In this document: in pieces, positions 319 through 19,409 of the stretch
Position numbering within the stretch: position 1 is the stretch's first letter
How the letters are laid out: each line of letters begins with the position of its first letter
Origin: Candidatus Methylomirabilis lanthanidiphila
GTDB lineage: Bacteria > Methylomirabilota > Methylomirabilia > Methylomirabilales > Methylomirabilaceae
Direction: 5' to 3'
Assembly: GCA_902196205.1 (NCBI GenBank)
Contig: CABIKM010000043.1
Coordinates: 1-40,704 of the forward strand
DNA length: 40,704 nt
The notes under the pieces: generated by a model
The model's database searches: none
The model's input: the letters and a program-made list of their open reading frames with translations, nothing else
What the model was told of the DNA's origin: nothing
Position numbers and translations under genes: made by a program

Positions 319-2565
319 ATGAGGGCAAGCATTCCACCTACCCAGTCCGACTCTCATCAGCTCGCATCGCGGTTTCGCTGGATTCCACACGCTGCAAGCG
401 CGAGCGCGGTTGCCGTCGGCGGCCTGGTCCTGGTCGGCTGGTGGCTTGACGTCGGAATCCTCAAGGCTCCGCTACCCGAATATCCCGCCATGATGGCCAA
501 CACGGCACTGGCCTTCGTCCTGATCGGTGTCGCTCTCTGGTTGTTGCGGACAGCGTCCACCAGTGGGCGGGGTCGACGTCTGTCCCGGATCTGCGCATCG
601 ATCGTCGCCCTCATCGGTCTGCTCACGCTCAGCGAATATCTGTTTGTATGGGACCTGGGGATTGGTCGACTGCCGGCCACGGATTTCCAGGCGCCTGCGG
701 GACCCTACCACGTTCCGGGTCGGATCGCGTTTGCGAGCGCGCTGAATTTTGTTGTGCTCGGCGCCGCGCTCCTGCTGTTGGATGTAAAGATCCGCGGCGA
801 CTATCGGCCTGCCGAGCATCTTGCGGTTACGGTTGCCGCCATCGCGTTGTTGACGCTCGTGGCGTACCTTTACGGCGGGACCGAGATCCATCAGCTCTAT
901 CCTTTTACAACCGTCGCTCCGCACACGGCCCTACTGTTCGTCGTGCTCTCCATCGGTGTCCTGTTTGCTCGATCACAGCACAGGATCGTGAGCATCATGA
1001 TGAGTGATACGGTCGCCGCCGCCGCAATGCGGCGCCTGCTGGTTGTCGCGATCCTTCTCCCGATCTCAGCGGGTTGGGTGAGGCTGATCGGGCAACGGTT
1101 CGGCCTCTTCGGCACCGAGTTCGGGCTGGCGCTTATCGTGGTGTTCGCAATCGTCGCGTTGACCGTGAGCGTCTACTGGCAGGCGACGTCGTTGATTCAG
1201 GCGGAGGAGTATCAGTGCGGGATCAATGAGATATCCGTCGCCTTTAGTGGGACGACCACCATTGAGGATACGTTCCCCGTCTTTGCGACGATAATCAAAA
1301 AGATCGCTTCGTATGATCGGATCTGTGTTGTGGCGCGTGACGGGGAGAAGCTGGTCGCAATAGCGTCGTGGGCTACCCTCCCTTTACAGTGTTTTCGGGG
1401 GAAGGCGTGGCGTCCGTCCGGTGAGACTGCCGTCGAGTGGGTCATGGACCATAAAACCCCTCGCCTGGTTCGGGACCTGCCGCTGGAGCAGCGTTTTGCT
1501 GATGAGGCCATCGTCGTGCGGGAGGGGATCCGGTCCACCTTGGTCCTGCCCCTAATGGTTGGTGGGGAGGCGGTCGGGACCGTAACCCTGGATAACAGGA
1601 TACCGGGCGCTTACACGTCGGACTCCGTAACGGTGTTGACGGGCTTCATGGAACCGCTGGCCGCTGCCGTGCGGAATGCCGAGCTCCACGCGCAGGTGGT
1701 CCGCTACACCCACGAGTTGGAGGATCTGGTCGAGGCGAGGACCCGAGAGTTGCAGACGGCGAACGGCCATCTGGCGGAAGCCTCTCGCCACAAGTCCATT
1801 TTTCTGACCAACATGTCCCACGAGTTGCGTACACCGCTCAACAGCATCATTGGCTTTTCCGAACTGCTGCGCAACCAGACTGCCGGTCCGCTGATCGCCA
1901 AGCAGGCCCGCTACATAGACCACATCTACACCAGCGGCCAGCATCTGCTTGTGCTGATCAACGACCTGCTGGACCTGTCGAAAGTCGAGGCGGGCAAACT
2001 CGTACTGCACCCCGAGCCCATCGCCCTCTCCGAGGCGCTTGCGGCCGCCGTACAAGATATCCGGCCCTTGACCGACACCAAGCGACTCACTCTCACGCTG
2101 GACGTGGACACTGCGCCGATCACCATTGCTGCCGACCCGGTCCGCTTCAAGCAGATCATCTACAACATGCTGTCGAATGCCGTGAAGTTCACTCCGGAAG
2201 AAGGCCGAATTACGGTCACCGCGAGACGAGTTTCGAGTTCCGAGTTTGGAGTGTCGAGTGTAGAACCCGAAACTGGAAACTCAAAACTAAAAACTGCCAG
2301 TCTGGGCGAGTTCGTGGAGATCACGGTCGCCGACACCGGGATCGGGATTGCGGCAGAGGACCTCTCTCGACTCTTTGCGCGCTTCAGTCAGATCGAAATT
2401 GAGACGACGAAGCGGCTCAAGGGGAGCGGGTTGGGTCTCGTGCTGACCAGGCAGTTGGTCGAACTGCACGGGGGGACGATCGCGATTGCGTCCGATGGCC
2501 CGGGCCAGGGGAGCACGTGTACGGTGCGGCTGCCGCTGGCGCCTCAGGTGAAGCCGGAGACATGA
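319..2565 (+). CDS. Membrane-bound GAF sensor histidine kinase
   Basis: About eight hydrophobic segments fill the first ~300 residues (MASE-like sensor membrane domain). A GAF domain follows, then a short coiled coil, a HisKA domain with the phospho-acceptor His at about residue 501 (motif MSHELRTPLN), and an HATPase_c domain with N box NMLSNAVKF, G1 ADTGIGI and G2 GSGLGL. It should autophosphorylate and pass phosphate to the response regulator whose ATG overlaps its stop. I chose ATG 319, preceded by GTGAGGAC. An in-frame GTG at 256 would add 21 polar residues. The signal is not recognisable from sequence. Oddity: a heptamer repeat element (2228-2296) is inserted in frame between the N box and G1 box of the ATPase domain. 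Confidence 0.88.
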   Translation: MRASIPPTQSDSHQLASRFRWIPHAASASAVAVGGLVLVGWWLDVGILKAPLPEYPAMMANTALAFVLIGVALWLLRTASTSGRGRRLSRICASIVALIGLLTLSEYLFVWDLGIGRLPATDFQAPAGPYHVPGRIAFASALNFVVLGAALLLLDVKIRGDYRPAEHLAVTVAAIALLTLVAYLYGGTEIHQLYPFTTVAPHTALLFVVLSIGVLFARSQHRIVSIMMSDTVAAAAMRRLLVVAILLPISAGWVRLIGQRFGLFGTEFGLALIVVFAIVALTVSVYWQATSLIQAEEYQCGINEISVAFSGTTTIEDTFPVFATIIKKIASYDRICVVARDGEKLVAIASWATLPLQCFRGKAWRPSGETAVEWVMDHKTPRLVRDLPLEQRFADEAIVVREGIRSTLVLPLMVGGEAVGTVTLDNRIPGAYTSDSVTVLTGFMEPLAAAVRNAELHAQVVRYTHELEDLVEARTRELQTANGHLAEASRHKSIFLTNMSHELRTPLNSIIGFSELLRNQTAGPLIAKQARYIDHIYTSGQHLLVLINDLLDLSKVEAGKLVLHPEPIALSEALAAAVQDIRPLTDTKRLTLTLDVDTAPITIAADPVRFKQIIYNMLSNAVKFTPEEGRITVTARRVSSSEFGVSSVEPETGNSKLKTASLGEFVEITVADTGIGIAAEDLSRLFARFSQIEIETTKRLKGSGLGLVLTRQLVELHGGTIAIASDGPGQGSTCTVRLPLAPQVKPET
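2228..2296 (+). repeat. Heptamer inverted-repeat element inside the histidine kinase gene
   Basis: Left arm repeats a 7-nt word (TTTCGAG, TTCCGAG, TTTGGAG, TGTCGAG). Right arm repeats roughly its complement (ACCCGAA, ACTGGAA, ACTCAAA, ACTAAAA). The element is read in frame and encodes residues containing SSEFGVSS and PETGNSKLK. The same family occurs at 6777-6866 and in both cobalamin riboswitches. Confidence 0.85.
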
Positions 2566-2942: not shown

Positions 2943-3040
2943 GTCGCCGACACCCCCGGGCGCACTCGGCGGAATGAGTGTGGCGCGCTCTTCCCTGAAA
3001 TCCTATATTAATTCATAGGGTTAATGTATGTCGTGTAGCT

Positions 3041-3058
3041 GTATACTATCGTATACGA
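3041..3058. promoter_or_regulatory. Possible operator palindrome upstream of the LuxR-type gene
   Basis: GTATAC is repeated twice with TATC between, and the second half forms the perfect palindrome TCGTATACGA. It lies about 50-70 bases before the start of the first LuxR-type regulator in an AT-rich stretch. A binding or autoregulatory role is inference only. Confidence 0.3.
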
Positions 3059-3108
3059 TTATAATATTTCGTTTAGCAGGTAAGTCGCTGGTATAGTGGT
3101 TGAAATCG

Positions 3109-3879
3109 ATGCGGGATGTGCGAAACAACCGAAGTCCCCTATCACGCTCGCTGGAAACGCCGCTCGCGAAGATGCTGGCGGGGATGATTGAGGCGGCGGC
3201 GAAGCGCCTGCACCCGGCGGTCCTTCAAGAGATGGTTCGCGATGTTGGGGCGCAGTTGGGTCGGCAGGCGGCTGCCGAGTACCGGCTGGCGCATCACATA
3301 AGCGGACGGTTCGACAGGTATGCCTGCGCCCGGTGCCTTGAGGCAATCGGGCAGCAGTTCAGGTGGGAGTATCAGGCATCAGTCGAGTCGGAAAGTGCCA
3401 TCCGGCTTGATGTGCAGGGGTGCCCGCTGGCGAAACTGGGCAGGCCTGAACCGTACTTGACCGAATTGGGATACGGAATGCTTGGTGGGGTGGTGGCGGA
3501 TGAGTTTGGCTACGCCAAGGTCTGCGTGAGCCATCAGCCTGACATGCCGCCGTTTCACTGTACCATCATGATCTACCTGCACGAATCTGAGGAGAGCCGG
3601 GCGGTAGGTGGCATCCTCTTTCCGCAGGTCGTCGATGAAGCGGCCCAGCTTGCAGAGTGGCAATCGCGCGAAAAACCTGCAGAGCGCCTGACGCCCCGCG
3701 AAACGGAAGTCTTCCGACTCATTGCGCAGGGTTTCACCGATAAGGAGGTCGCCACAGCGCTCCATCTATCCGTCTGTACCGTCCAGAATCATGCCGCGCA
3801 GATCCGCCGCAAACTGAGGATCGGTACCCGCACGGCGCTGGTCCGGTTCGCACTCCGTGCTCCTGTGGGCGAAGGGTAA
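3109..3879 (+). CDS. LuxR-family transcriptional regulator with Cys-rich N-terminal domain (paralog 1)
   Basis: The C-terminal ~65 residues are a GerE/LuxR helix-turn-helix (LTPRETEVFRLIAQGFTDKE, then recognition-helix region VQNHAAQIRRKL). The N-terminal ~185 residues are not a receiver or autoinducer domain. They contain GCPL, a Gly-rich helix GMLGGVVADEFG, then KVCVS and PPFHC, vaguely like V4R/methanogen-output-domain (MetOD1) sensors. Cys76, 105, 139 and 151 are conserved in the paralog at 4046. A metal, Fe-S or thiol sensing role is inferred from that. Start is ATG 3109; TTG 3100 is also in frame, and neither has a strong ribosome site. Confidence 0.78.
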   Translation: MRDVRNNRSPLSRSLETPLAKMLAGMIEAAAKRLHPAVLQEMVRDVGAQLGRQAAAEYRLAHHISGRFDRYACARCLEAIGQQFRWEYQASVESESAIRLDVQGCPLAKLGRPEPYLTELGYGMLGGVVADEFGYAKVCVSHQPDMPPFHCTIMIYLHESEESRAVGGILFPQVVDEAAQLAEWQSREKPAERLTPRETEVFRLIAQGFTDKEVATALHLSVCTVQNHAAQIRRKLRIGTRTALVRFALRAPVGEG

Positions 3880-9160: not shown

Positions 9161-9248
9161 GACACAGTCGACGAGTGGGAGGCGGCCCGGCGGCTTAATC
9201 TGTAAGTCGGAAGCGATCTGATGACCAACAGACAGAACGGAGGGAGAG

Positions 9249-9614
9249 ATGGCGAGATTGCTGATCACCGCGACCCATGGGTACGACAATTCCACGCGGG
9301 CGGCGATGCCGTTCTTTGTGGCGAAGGGGGCGAAGGAGTCGGGTATCGACGTCGGCATTGTGCTGGCGCTCGACGCCACGGTCCTGATCAAGCCGGAGTT
9401 ACGACAGCACGTGAAGCCCTACGGACTTCCGCCGCTCGACGAGCTGTTTCAGTTCGCTGTGGATCACCAGGTCCCGATCTACCTCTGAGGCGGGTGAGCG
9501 CAGACCCGGGGGGTCTTGGATGAAGACCTCAAGCGCGTGTCGGTCGTTGAGAAGATCGACATCAAACGGTACGCCCAACTGCTCGTAGAATACGATCGGT
9601 CGGTGACATATTAA
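9249..9614 (+). CDS. DsrE/DsrF-family protein, probable selenoprotein with UxxU motif
   Basis: The first 79 codons give a DsrE-like fold (ITATHGYDNSTRAAMPFFVAK through DELFQFAVDHQVPIYL), where the family normally continues with C-x-x-C. Here both cysteine positions are TGA (9486-9488 and 9495-9497), with GGC GGG between. Reading through gives a further 40 codons (AQTRGVLDEDLKRVSVVEKI and on) to TAA 9612-9614, for 121 residues, the normal family length. Two G-loop hairpins lie downstream (9502-9516 and 9510-9530). DsrE-like selenoproteins are known in bacteria, to my recollection. The role is likely thiol/sulfur or redox chemistry. The ribosome site GGAGG at 9239-9243 is good. An ordinary annotation would stop at 9488. 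The alternative, a pseudogene, would need both active-site codons to mutate to TGA while all else stayed intact. Confidence 0.75.
9502..9530 (+). promoter_or_regulatory. Candidate bacterial SECIS hairpins
   Basis: Hairpin 1: AGACCC-GGG-GGGTCT (9502-9516), loop G about 20 bases after the first TGA. Hairpin 2: 8-bp stem GGGGTCTT/AAGACCTC with loop GGATG (9510-9530, one G-U pair), loop G about 21 bases after the second TGA. Bacterial SECIS elements typically have a G in the apical loop roughly 16-37 bases after the UGA. The two stems overlap and exclude each other, so each may serve one codon as the ribosome advances. Confidence 0.55.
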
Positions 9615-9617
9615 GAA

Positions 9618-9709
9618 GCAGCTATTAGCTGTCAGCTATCAGCTTTCAGGTAAAGATAATCTGAAGAGTACGATAAAGCTGATCGCTGACGGCTGATAGC
9701 TGATAGCTG
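9618..9709. repeat. Heptamer inverted-repeat element (AGCTATC type)
   Basis: Left arm 9618-9646 repeats CAGCTAT, TAGCTGT, CAGCTAT, CAGCTTT with a 7-base period. Right arm 9675-9709 repeats the complement (AAGCTGA, GGCTGAT, AGCTGAT). About 28 bases lie between the arms. It sits between the DsrE gene and the quinone oxidoreductase gene and could form a strong hairpin in RNA. Confidence 0.85.
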
Positions 9710-9727: not shown

Positions 9728-10696
9728 ATGCGCGCGATTCGCGTACATGAATATGGCGGTCCTGACGTACTTCGCTACGAGGAGGTGGCGCGCCCCGAAC
9801 CCGGCGCAGGCGAGGCGCGGGTCAAGATCGATGCGGTGGGCATCAACTATATCGATATCTACCAGCGGAAGGGTCAATACCCCGACCCGCTGCCGGTGAT
9901 CCCCGGCAGGGAGGCAGCCGGCGTCGTCGATGCGGTCGGCCCGGACGTGTCGGATCTTGCAGTAGGAACCCGCGTCGTCTACGCGATGCACGTAGGCAGC
10001 TATGCGGAGTATGCGGTTGTCCCGGCACGGCGGCTGGTGCCGATCCCCGCCGCGATAGATGCGCGAGTAGCGGCCGCGGTGATGCTACAGGGACTGACCG
10101 CGCACTATCTGACCCACAGCACCTATCCGCTGCAGCCTGGCGACAGCGCGCTGGTTCATGCGGCCGCCGGCGGCGTCGGCCTGCTCCTGGTCCAGATGGC
10201 GAAGCGGCGAGGCGCCCGGGTTATCGGGACCGTCTCGACAGAGGAGAAGGCGAGCCTGGCGAAAGAGGCCGGTGCCGATGAGGTGATCCTCTACACGCGG
10301 GCCGACTTCGAGGCGGAAACCAGGCGCCTGACCGACGGCAAGGGCGTACATGTGGTCTACGACTCGGTCGGACAGACTACCTTCGATAAAAGCTTGAACT
10401 GCCTGAAGCCTCGCGGCTATATGGTCCTTTATGGCCAAGCCAGCGGACCGGTGCCGCCGTTCAACCCCCAACTGCTCAGTACCAAGGGTTCAGTGTTTCT
10501 GACCCGTCCTAACCTGATGCACTATACGCTCGACCGGGCGGAACTGTTGAGGCGGGCCGGCGATCTGTTCGACTGGATCAACGCCGCAACGCTCACCGTG
10601 CGGATCGACGCGGCATTCCCGCTTGCCGAGGCCCCCCTCGCTCATCGCCGCCTTGAAGAACGCAAGAGCATAGGAAAACTGTTACTGATCCCCTGA
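9728..10696 (+). CDS. Zinc-independent NADPH:quinone oxidoreductase (MDR superfamily)
   Basis: 322 residues with the MDR layout: a GroES-like N-terminal half ([25 protein letters not shown]) and a Rossmann half with the nucleotide-binding motif [19 protein letters not shown]. The catalytic and structural zinc cysteines of alcohol dehydrogenases are absent, as in QOR/zeta-crystallin enzymes. Late motifs ([30 protein letters not shown]) fit quinone reductase. It likely reduces quinones or enones with NADPH in the cytoplasm. AGGAG at 9714-9718 supports ATG 9728. Its TGA overlaps the ATG of the next gene (TGATG). Confidence 0.9.
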
Positions 10697-16568: not shown

Positions 16569-16594
16569 AGACCTCGTCTCGCGAGAGTGGGACG

Positions 16595-16860
16595 AGGCTG
16601 AGTCCGCCGGCGGCGGAAACAGGGAAAACGGTGAAGCCCTGCACTCGCAGGGTGGAGGGCCATGCCGTTGCTGCCCCGCAACTGTAAGCGGCATTGAAAT
16701 CTGCAGAATGCCACTGTCCAAAGGAATAGTTTCGAGTTGCGAGTTTTGAGTTTCGAGTTTGAGAACCCGAAACCCGGAACCCAAAACCAGAAACTAGCGT
16801 GGATGGGAAGGCGCAGAGAGTAAGGTGAGCCGCGAGTCAGGAGACCTGCCCAGCCTTCAG
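16595..16860 (+). ncRNA. Cobalamin riboswitch 1 (upstream of the terminator hairpin)
   Basis: Conserved pieces appear in the right order: AGGGAAAACGGTGAAGCC, GCTGCCCCGCAACTGTAAGC, GCCACTGT, GGGAAGGCGC and the B12 box GAGTCAGGAGACCTGCC (16834-16850). AGGCTG (16595-16600) can pair with CAGCCT (16851-16856) as P1. The variable arm between GCCACTGT and GGGAAGGC holds a heptamer repeat hairpin. No gene follows directly. A terminator lies at 16945 and a second riboswitch after it, so this one probably acts by transcription attenuation on the btu operon. Confidence 0.88.
16700..16816 (+). repeat. 117-nt block with heptamer hairpin inside riboswitch 1
   Basis: Identical to 17193-17308 in riboswitch 2. 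The core repeats TTTCGAG-like heptamers (left arm) and ACCCGAA-like heptamers (right arm), with TAGTTTC and GAAACTA closing the hairpin. It occupies the peripheral variable arm of the riboswitch. Confidence 0.9.
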
Positions 16861-16944
16861 GTGCTGATGACCTTCCGAGGGGGAGGGCGGCCTTGTCGCG
16901 TACCGGGTTAATCGCGGCGCAGGTGTAGCGCTCGGTTTGGGTAT

Positions 16945-17094: not shown

Positions 17095-17345
17095 ATTGAA
17101 CGCCCCTGGATGTAAGGGAAGCTGGTGTGCCGGCCGCATAGTGCGGCGGAGCAAAGCCAGCACGGTCCCGCCACTGTGAGTGGGGAGCCGCTCTGCAGAA
17201 TGCCACTGTCCAAAGGAATAGTTTCGAGTTGCGAGTTTTGAGTTTCGAGTTTGAGAACCCGAAACCCGGAACCCAAAACCAGAAACTAGCGTGGATGGGA
17301 AGGCGCAGGGTTGGCGACGATCCACAAGTCAGGAGACCTTATCCG
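17095..17345 (+). ncRNA. Cobalamin riboswitch 2 (directly upstream of btuB)
   Basis: It carries AAGGGAAGCTGGTG, CCGCCACTGTGAG, then GCCACTGT, GGGAAGGCGC and the B12 box CAAGTCAGGAGACCTT (17326-17341), all in the order of cobalamin riboswitches. Apart from the shared 117-nt block its sequence differs from riboswitch 1. It ends ~45 bases before the btuB start, with no terminator between, so it most likely controls translation initiation of btuB. Confidence 0.9.
17193..17308 (+). repeat. 117-nt block with heptamer hairpin inside riboswitch 2
   Basis: Same sequence as 16700-16816, offset 492 bases. Bases on both sides differ between the two riboswitches, so the identical tract is confined to the peripheral arm and its base. 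This points to recent copying or gene conversion of the arm only. Confidence 0.9.
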
Positions 17346-17390
17346 GGGGACAATATCGACGTACCACCTTCGCGGATAAGGGGGCGAATG

Positions 17391-19409
17391 ATGACACGCT
17401 GGAAAAGTGCCGCCAAGTGGTGGTTGTGGATGGTGATTCTGTGGTGCTGTGGACTGGAAAGCGCGTGGGGACAGATGCTCGGATCGGTTGCTGAAGACGC
17501 GGTAGAGCTGGGATCGGTGGTGGTGACGGCGACGAAAACTGAGGTTCCCGTGAAACAGGTCGCGGCGTCGGTCACCGTGATTACGAGGGAGGAGATTGAG
17601 GCGCGTCAGGTCACTCAGGTGTCGGATCTGCTCCGGGATGTTCCAGGCTTGAGTGTCAGGCAGCAGAGCAGTCGAGGGAGTGTCGTGAGTATTTTTCCGA
17701 GGGGCGGCAACTCGAATTTCAACTTGGTGCTGATTGACGGCGTGAAGGTCAACGATGCCGGCGGCTTCTACGACTTCGGCGACTTCAGCGCCGACAATAT
17801 CGAGCGGATCGAGATTGTCCGAGGTCCCCACAGCGCGCTGTACGGCTCCGATGCCATGGGGTCGGTGATTCAGATCTTTACCAGGCGAGGAAAGGGAACC
17901 CCGCGCGTCGAGACCTCGTTTGGGGGCGGAAATCTGAAGACGTTTGAGGAAAAATTGAATCTCAGCGGGGGTGCCGGGCAATTCGACTATTCGTTCGGGG
18001 TGGGTCGAAACGATACCGGTGGGAACCTTCCGATCAACAACCACTTCGGCGAGACGACCGTGAGCAGTCGTGTGGGCTTTACGCTTGAGAAAGTGCTGGA
18101 TCTGGGTCTCGCTGTCCGTTATACCGACAGCCATCTTCATTTTCCTACTGAGACCGGCGATCGGTTCAATGGAGTCAAGCTCCCGCTCGATCCGGACCAA
18201 TCGAGCGACCAGCAACGGCTGGTCGTCAGCGGCAAAGCCAGCCACGCGCTCACACCCTGGTGGGGGCAGACGCTTCAGCTTGGTTGGTACCGGCGCAACT
18301 ATGCGTTGGATGATCCCTTCAATTCCGGGATCGATTTTTCGACCTTTCGCAGTGATAGTGAAGAGCGCCGGTTCTCCCTCGATTACTCCTGGAACCTGAC
18401 CGCCCCCACCGTTCTGAATATTTCCAGCCTCTTGACCGCAGGTTTCGCCTTTGAGCGTGAGGAGTTTGAGCAGCAGGCCGCAGTCACCGCGACCGATTTT
18501 CCCTCCTCAAGCGCCAACGCGGCCAGACGGGATAATAAGGCCGGTTATCTCCAGGGTCAGTTTGATTGGAGGAAACAGCTTTTCCTGACGGCAGGATTCA
18601 GGGTTGACGGCAACAGCACCTTCGGGACCGAGGTGACGCCGAGGGTCTCGGCGGCGTGGATCGTTCCGTACCTGGGGACCAAGTTGAGGGGTGGATATGG
18701 TGAGGGGATCAAGGAGCCGAGCTTCGTTGAGAATTTCGGCGATGGAAGTCAGTTTATCGTCGGGAATCCTCACCTGAAGCCGGAACGGATCAGGGGCTGG
18801 GAGATCGGCTTCGACCAGCCGTTCTTTCATGGTCTGGCCGATTTCTCGGCGACGTACTTCCACAACCACTTTCAGGACCTGATCGCTTTCATCTTCAGTC
18901 CTACCTCAGGCTGTTCGGCCAGCTTCTGTAACGTTCAAAAGGCAAAGGCGGAAGGGGTCGAATTCGCTGCGACAATCCGGCCGGGATACGGCCTGACTAT
19001 CGGCGGAGGCTACACATTCCTTGATACGAAGGTGCTCAACGATGGCGGCATTGGGTCTGTCGCGCTGCAGAATGGGGAGCGGCTGCTCCGCCGACCCAAG
19101 CACGCCGGGACGCTTTCCATTGACCATGTCTGGCGTCGCCTGCACACCAGCCTGACGACCACATTTGTTGGGAATCGGTCGGACATCTTTACCGATCCTG
19201 CCACATTCTCGACTGAACGGGTAAGGGCGGATGGCTATATAACCGTAGATCTGGCGGGCTCGTATCTCCTGTTGAAAGACACCCGCCACCTGCGGGAGCT
19301 TACACTGTTCGGAAGAATCCAGAATCTCTTCGATCGGAATTATCAGCAGGTCGCCGGTTTTTCGGCGCCGGGCATCACCTGGCTGTTTGGCCTGAAGGGC
19401 AGCCTATGA
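17391..19409 (+). CDS. btuB: TonB-dependent outer-membrane cobalamin receptor
   Basis: 672 residues: signal peptide ending near SAWG, a TonB-box-like VVVTATK, a plug domain (TVITREEIEARQVTQVSDLL, SRGSVVSIFPRGGNSNFNLVL, NIERIEIVRGPHSALYGSDA), a 22-strand barrel and a terminal aromatic-rich strand. Two cobalamin riboswitches upstream and btuFCD downstream identify the substrate as B12 or a related corrinoid. ATG 17391 has AAGGGG at 17378-17383. Earlier in-frame starts such as 17229 lie inside the riboswitch and are rejected. It overlaps btuF by ATGA. Confidence 0.92.
   Translation: MTRWKSAAKWWLWMVILWCCGLESAWGQMLGSVAEDAVELGSVVVTATKTEVPVKQVAASVTVITREEIEARQVTQVSDLLRDVPGLSVRQQSSRGSVVSIFPRGGNSNFNLVLIDGVKVNDAGGFYDFGDFSADNIERIEIVRGPHSALYGSDAMGSVIQIFTRRGKGTPRVETSFGGGNLKTFEEKLNLSGGAGQFDYSFGVGRNDTGGNLPINNHFGETTVSSRVGFTLEKVLDLGLAVRYTDSHLHFPTETGDRFNGVKLPLDPDQSSDQQRLVVSGKASHALTPWWGQTLQLGWYRRNYALDDPFNSGIDFSTFRSDSEERRFSLDYSWNLTAPTVLNISSLLTAGFAFEREEFEQQAAVTATDFPSSSANAARRDNKAGYLQGQFDWRKQLFLTAGFRVDGNSTFGTEVTPRVSAAWIVPYLGTKLRGGYGEGIKEPSFVENFGDGSQFIVGNPHLKPERIRGWEIGFDQPFFHGLADFSATYFHNHFQDLIAFIFSPTSGCSASFCNVQKAKAEGVEFAATIRPGYGLTIGGGYTFLDTKVLNDGGIGSVALQNGERLLRRPKHAGTLSIDHVWRRLHTSLTTTFVGNRSDIFTDPATFSTERVRADGYITVDLAGSYLLLKDTRHLRELTLFGRIQNLFDRNYQQVAGFSAPGITWLFGLKGSL

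Follow-up and report, generated by a model that had tools for sequence, protein, structure and literature searches.

Two in-frame UGA codons in a DsrE/DsrF-like gene of Candidatus Methylomirabilis lanthanidiphila very likely encode a double-selenocysteine UxxU motif

The stretch of DNA analyzed here, from the methane-oxidizing Candidatus Methylomirabilis lanthanidiphila (the window, 40,704 nucleotides) carries a dsrE-like gene that yields a 79-aa ORF under the standard code (table 11). Its frame continues through two TGA codons and another 38 sense codons to a TAA, which raises the question of whether the gene is broken or whether both UGAs are decoded. Our analysis indicates that the gene very likely encodes a DsrE/DsrF-like selenoprotein with U80-G-G-U83 at the redox/sulfur-carrying CxxC site of the family, with selenocysteine (Sec) very probable at both UGAs. 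A double-Sec (UxxU) site had been proposed in an earlier, sequence-only reading of this locus, and it is supported by the cysteine columns of the family, the Sec machinery and a bSECIS-like hairpin. The start, both TGAs, the stop and the length given in that reading were all exact (Table 1), as was the expected truncation by gene callers at 79 residues. The read-through motif is L-U-G-G-U-A, and G-rich stretches resembling the Shine-Dalgarno-like element are found upstream of the start in most dsrE orthologs. An overlapping ORF in the +1 frame (9221-9523, 100 aa) was set aside, as it overlaps dsrE and lacks homology evidence.

Table 1. Features at and around the dsrE-like gene (window coordinates).
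Feature	Position	Strand	Remarks
dsrE-like selenoprotein gene	9249..9614	+	ATG 9249; read-through product of 121 aa with UGGU; ends at TAA 9612-9614
Shine-Dalgarno-like GGAGGGAG	9239..9246	+	5' of ATG 9249; seen in sequence
UGA1 / Sec80 (TGA, codon 80)	9486..9488	+	residue 1 of CxxC-type motif
UGA2 / Sec83 (TGA, codon 83)	9495..9497	+	residue 2 of CxxC-type motif
Hairpin A, alternative: AGACCC[GGG]GGGUCU	9502..9516	+	loop 19 nt after UGA1
Hairpin B, putative SECIS: GGGGUCUU[GGAUG]AAGACCUC	9510..9530	+	8 bp
Hairpin B apical loop, GGAUG (GGACG in some orthologs)	9518..9522	+	
Zinc-type MDR / quinone-oxidoreductase-like gene	9728..10696	+	adjoins dsrE in 5/5 genus genomes examined

The read-through product matches the Pfam family DsrE (PF02635) over residues 4-120 with 51.7 bits against a cut-off of 22.7, so the match spans both TGAs and bears out the family assignment of the sequence-only reading. 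Within the genus, the gene was found in 11 of 15 genomes, all 11 with both TGAs. Most of the four genomes that gave no match are incomplete (80-81%), but G008, which contains selA, is 94% complete; here the gene is either lost or unassembled. Among 95 Methylomirabilota genomes, six more have close orthologs with both TGAs (66-82% identity). Sixteen further genomes thus have both TGAs at identical codons, flanked on either side by full-length homology; such a recurrence is far beyond chance. The motif is UxxU in 16/16 close orthologs aligned over it, and the double TGA is also present in two more distant relatives (L042 and L049); G030 and G032, members of one family with about 38% identity, have the motifs UGGU and UTGU. 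About 30 further relatives in the phylum have a single TGA and the motif UxxC, while a distant group has CSPC and no TGA. Columns 80 and 83 hold U or C throughout the relatives; the one exception is the distant L091, in which the second Cys is missing. The TGAs therefore fall on the C-x-x-C columns of the family, as had been proposed, with homologs carrying U or C at 80 and C or U at 83, and close relatives show Cys or TGA at both columns instead of frameshifts or stray stops. One family thereby displays a CxxC, UxxC and UxxU series. The window protein falls in a clade of its own, with identity of about 40% to UxxC relatives in the phylum. Two independent UxxU origins were considered, since two changes are required on the best tree, but the AU test does not reject a single clade (p 0.468). 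Outside the phylum, no double-TGA member was seen among roughly 300 sampled genomes, where homologs have one TGA or none.

The sequence beyond the TGAs evolves as coding sequence. Against the window gene, dN/dS of orthologs is 0.008-0.19 before the TGAs and 0.02-0.18 after UGA2, with mean pN/pS of 0.15 and 0.21, respectively. By these ratios the codons 3' of UGA2 are under purifying selection, which indicates that this part is translated in the same frame.

A bSECIS-like hairpin, which the sequence-only reading had left to be checked, lies within the distance range of both UGAs. The bSECIS model specifies a loop of 3-9 nt with a G within the first two loop bases, a stem of 4-16 bp, a distance of 16-37 nt between UGA and loop, and an MFE of at most -7.5 kcal/mol (PMC13188914). 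Hairpin B fits this model for both UGAs, with a 5-nt loop, 8 bp and -10.3 kcal/mol (z -3.28), and its loop starts 29 nt past UGA1 and 20 nt past UGA2. The hairpin itself stands out, whereas a longer stretch of 54 nt has an unremarkable folding energy (z -1.0). In the window, an 8-bp hairpin meeting both spacings arises at about 2.6% of coding positions. Of the 128 pair cells in 16 distinct UxxU sequences, 127 are formed, and codons 88-94, which cover the hairpin, have the lowest synonymous variation among 7-codon windows (tied with the overlapping codon-89 window); the sole synonymously varying third position belongs to the loop. Permuting the codons, with autocorrelation ignored, gives p about 1e-5. 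Because hairpin B is near-invariant, it provides no compensatory changes. We consider it likely that hairpin B is the SECIS for UGA2, and somewhat favor that it additionally serves UGA1. SelB and Sec-tRNA would then decode both UGAs with the aid of this downstream hairpin, whose loop would be within working range of each.

The alternative that survives best is that Sec is inserted at UGA1 while UGA2 mostly terminates or is read inefficiently, such that an 82-residue fragment is the main product and the full protein a minority. Two recodings nine bases apart presumably reduce yield, and if hairpin A worked alone, the distance from UGA2 to its loop, 10 nt, would be too short for the 16-37 nt of the model. 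However, the purifying selection on the codons past UGA2, the synonymously frozen hairpin B 20 nt past UGA2 and the Cys at column 83 of relatives all oppose this explanation, and we regard it as improbable.

The position of the putative SECIS differs between the UxxC and UxxU forms. In UxxC relatives, a 6-bp hairpin A occupies nt 17-31 counted from the U of the UGA, which places its loop 19 nt downstream; 96% of cells are paired, and the double-change score is 0.139 compared to at most 0.021 in slid registers, a value reached in 0/300 shuffles. The alternative hairpin in the window has the same register as this covarying SECIS, and UxxU orthologs keep the 6-bp hairpin A, but the near-invariant one is hairpin B, about 10 nt further downstream. 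The hairpin A loop of the UxxC relatives would be just 10 nt from a second-position UGA and thus out of range, whereas hairpin B of the UxxU forms is in range of both; a downstream shift of the SECIS therefore seems to have brought both UGAs within its reach. Individual orthologs vary: hairpin A is longer (9 bp) in L035 and L038, and in L038 also the lowest-energy fold, while L042 and L049 have a different 7-8 bp hairpin with its loop 35 nt past UGA1 and 26 nt past UGA2. Since the 3' arm of hairpin A (nt 26-31) is shared with hairpin B, the two are mutually exclusive. The shared arm also makes a refolding relay conceivable, though rather unlikely, in which hairpin A serves UGA1 and hairpin B serves UGA2: a ribosome advancing nine bases would melt the 5' arm of A and free the GGGUCU strand, allowing B to form. 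If true, such a relay would be a new way to decode closely spaced UGAs. The shift between UxxC and UxxU makes it testable whether UGAs nine bases apart are served by a single RNA element or by two that overlap.

The 79-aa ORF under standard calling could also be the remnant of a dead dsrE gene with two nonsense mutations. A pseudogene is, however, hard to reconcile with 17 genomes, down to 66% identity, that share these two stops and are free of further stops or frameshifts in the gene, or with dN/dS of 0.008-0.19 over the whole gene, and this explanation is highly improbable.

Decoding of both UGAs as Sec further requires the corresponding machinery. The source assembly (99.98% complete) contains selA (603.6 bits), selB (377 bits), selD (405.6 bits) and a tRNA-Sec with anticodon TCA (65.9 bits); the components that the sequence-only reading had proposed to look for, and whose absence it had set against itself, are thus all present in the same assembly. 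Above its cut-off, selA is found in 83 of the 95 phylum genomes; G060, a 95% complete MAG, has the double TGA, yet selA was not detected. At its HGAGU site, the selD gene (L053, G000:C30) also contains an in-frame TGA, followed by a 9-bp hairpin with a GTG loop that begins 33 nt downstream of the TGA. Sequence evidence supports the reading of both UGAs in frame, at cysteine columns and in a genome with the complete Sec machinery. A genome-wide reassignment of UGA to Trp, Gly or Cys would also give read-through, but TGA is the true terminator of dsrE in six orthologs, which excludes a global reassignment, and the complete Sec machinery and the Sec-type TGA in selD likewise leave it a negligible probability. 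Equally negligible is a sequencing or assembly error, since independent assemblies agree, including the single contig of 2,752,854 bases of G004, even though the genomes compared are mostly draft MAGs.

Cysteine at this motif position acts as a sulfur carrier in DsrE/TusD proteins, and the redox potential of a diselenide pair lies below that of a disulfide. The likeliest role is therefore in redox or in sulfur/selenium transfer, and we find such a redox or chalcogen-transfer function probable. The protein would adopt a DsrE/YchN-type subunit fold, and U80 and U83 may alternate between diselenide and selenol or hold selenium-bound sulfur, which would make it a protein for low-potential redox reactions or for the transfer of sulfur or selenium. 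The predicted structure of the read-through protein has a pLDDT of 96 and a pTM of 0.90, with the motif located where strand 77-80 ends and helix 81-86 begins. The nearest solved folds are 3mc3, YchN, DsrEFH, Swol_2425 and TusBCD (TM-score 0.74-0.83). E. coli YchN (1jx7) and Sulfolobus 3mc3 are nearest at about 0.8, and CKTC of YchN aligns to UGGU of the Methylomirabilis protein; both differ from it in being without Sec and are about 20% identical. The TusD/DsrE sulfurtransferase subunits (2d1p, 2hy5) have the fold in common and a weak profile match around the motif, but no adjacent tusBC-like partners were seen at the Methylomirabilis gene, and the TusD equivalog profile scores 15.1 bits, under its cut-off of 89.25. 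A PHROGs profile search gave no match. The DsrE-like domain of YedF (SirA-like + DsrE-like) is likewise tied to selenium use, although its motif is described as CGxC, not Sec, and the Methylomirabilis protein is without the SirA-like domain (PMC5322559).

In previous reports, DsrE-like selenoproteins are listed with a single Sec in a UxxC motif (PMC1088965, PMC2398784, PMC9312934, PMC13188914; tabulated in PMC1794560). The protein found here agrees with them in the PF02635 domain, Sec at the first motif position and a SECIS just downstream; it differs in that the second motif residue is also Sec and the loop is about 10 nt further downstream, and it thereby falls outside the single-Sec UxxC definition of the subfamily. 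UxxU is known from a Prx-like thiol:disulfide oxidoreductase (PF00578), a putative mercuric reductase (NF041115) and an FmdB-type protein (TIGR02605) (PMC13188914, PMC2398784), which likewise have two Sec in an xx-spaced redox motif but belong to unrelated protein families. The sequence-only reading had called the two-Sec site rare; the double Sec itself held up, whereas the Prx-like and mercuric-reductase-like UxxU proteins show that it is not unprecedented in bacteria (PMC13188914). As DsrE is published as UxxC and UxxU in other families, the probable double-Sec DsrE constitutes a new form of a known selenoprotein family, and extends a family listed with one Sec only by a form that is conserved between Candidatus Methylomirabilis and its relatives. 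The literature examined contained no double-Sec DsrE, although a groundwater study of 2026, cited as ref. 66 in PMC13188914 and reporting 63 selenoprotein genes predicted in one Methylomirabilota MAG, may already list it. For genome annotation, the consequence is that automatic calls in these genomes cut the DsrE-like protein short at the first UGA.

The neighboring genes differ between genera, and a function based on the operon was therefore dropped; as neighbors are not conserved outside the genus, the functional assignment is based on fold and motif. Within the genus, the adjoining MDR gene is a possible partner of the DsrE-like protein. The gap between dsrE and the MDR gene is 12 nt in L094. 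Elsewhere, the neighbors are Rieske/cytochrome genes and a rhodanese (L098), or pyruvate dehydrogenase E1/E2-type genes (L101, G091:C12, 4242-8042, minus strand), where the UxxU dsrE lies between a transketolase-type E1-beta and a 2-oxoacid dehydrogenase E2 gene. In L100 (G082:C164), a UxxU and a UxxC dsrE gene (880-1242, plus strand, and 3031-3387, minus strand) are located about 2 kb apart, near a class-V aminotransferase (cysteine-desulfurase-like) gene. In the window, the interval separating dsrE from the MDR gene contains an inverted-repeat cluster of AGCTGTCAGCTATCAGC type (9619-9709), with 28-nt arms that are 89% complementary. Further downstream, tandem cobalamin riboswitches (16583-16867, plus strand, 96.8 bits; 17095-17356, plus strand, 79.2 bits), which share a 148-nt stretch with 93% identity, precede a TonB-dependent-receptor-like ORF (17229-19409) and ABC-transporter-like genes.
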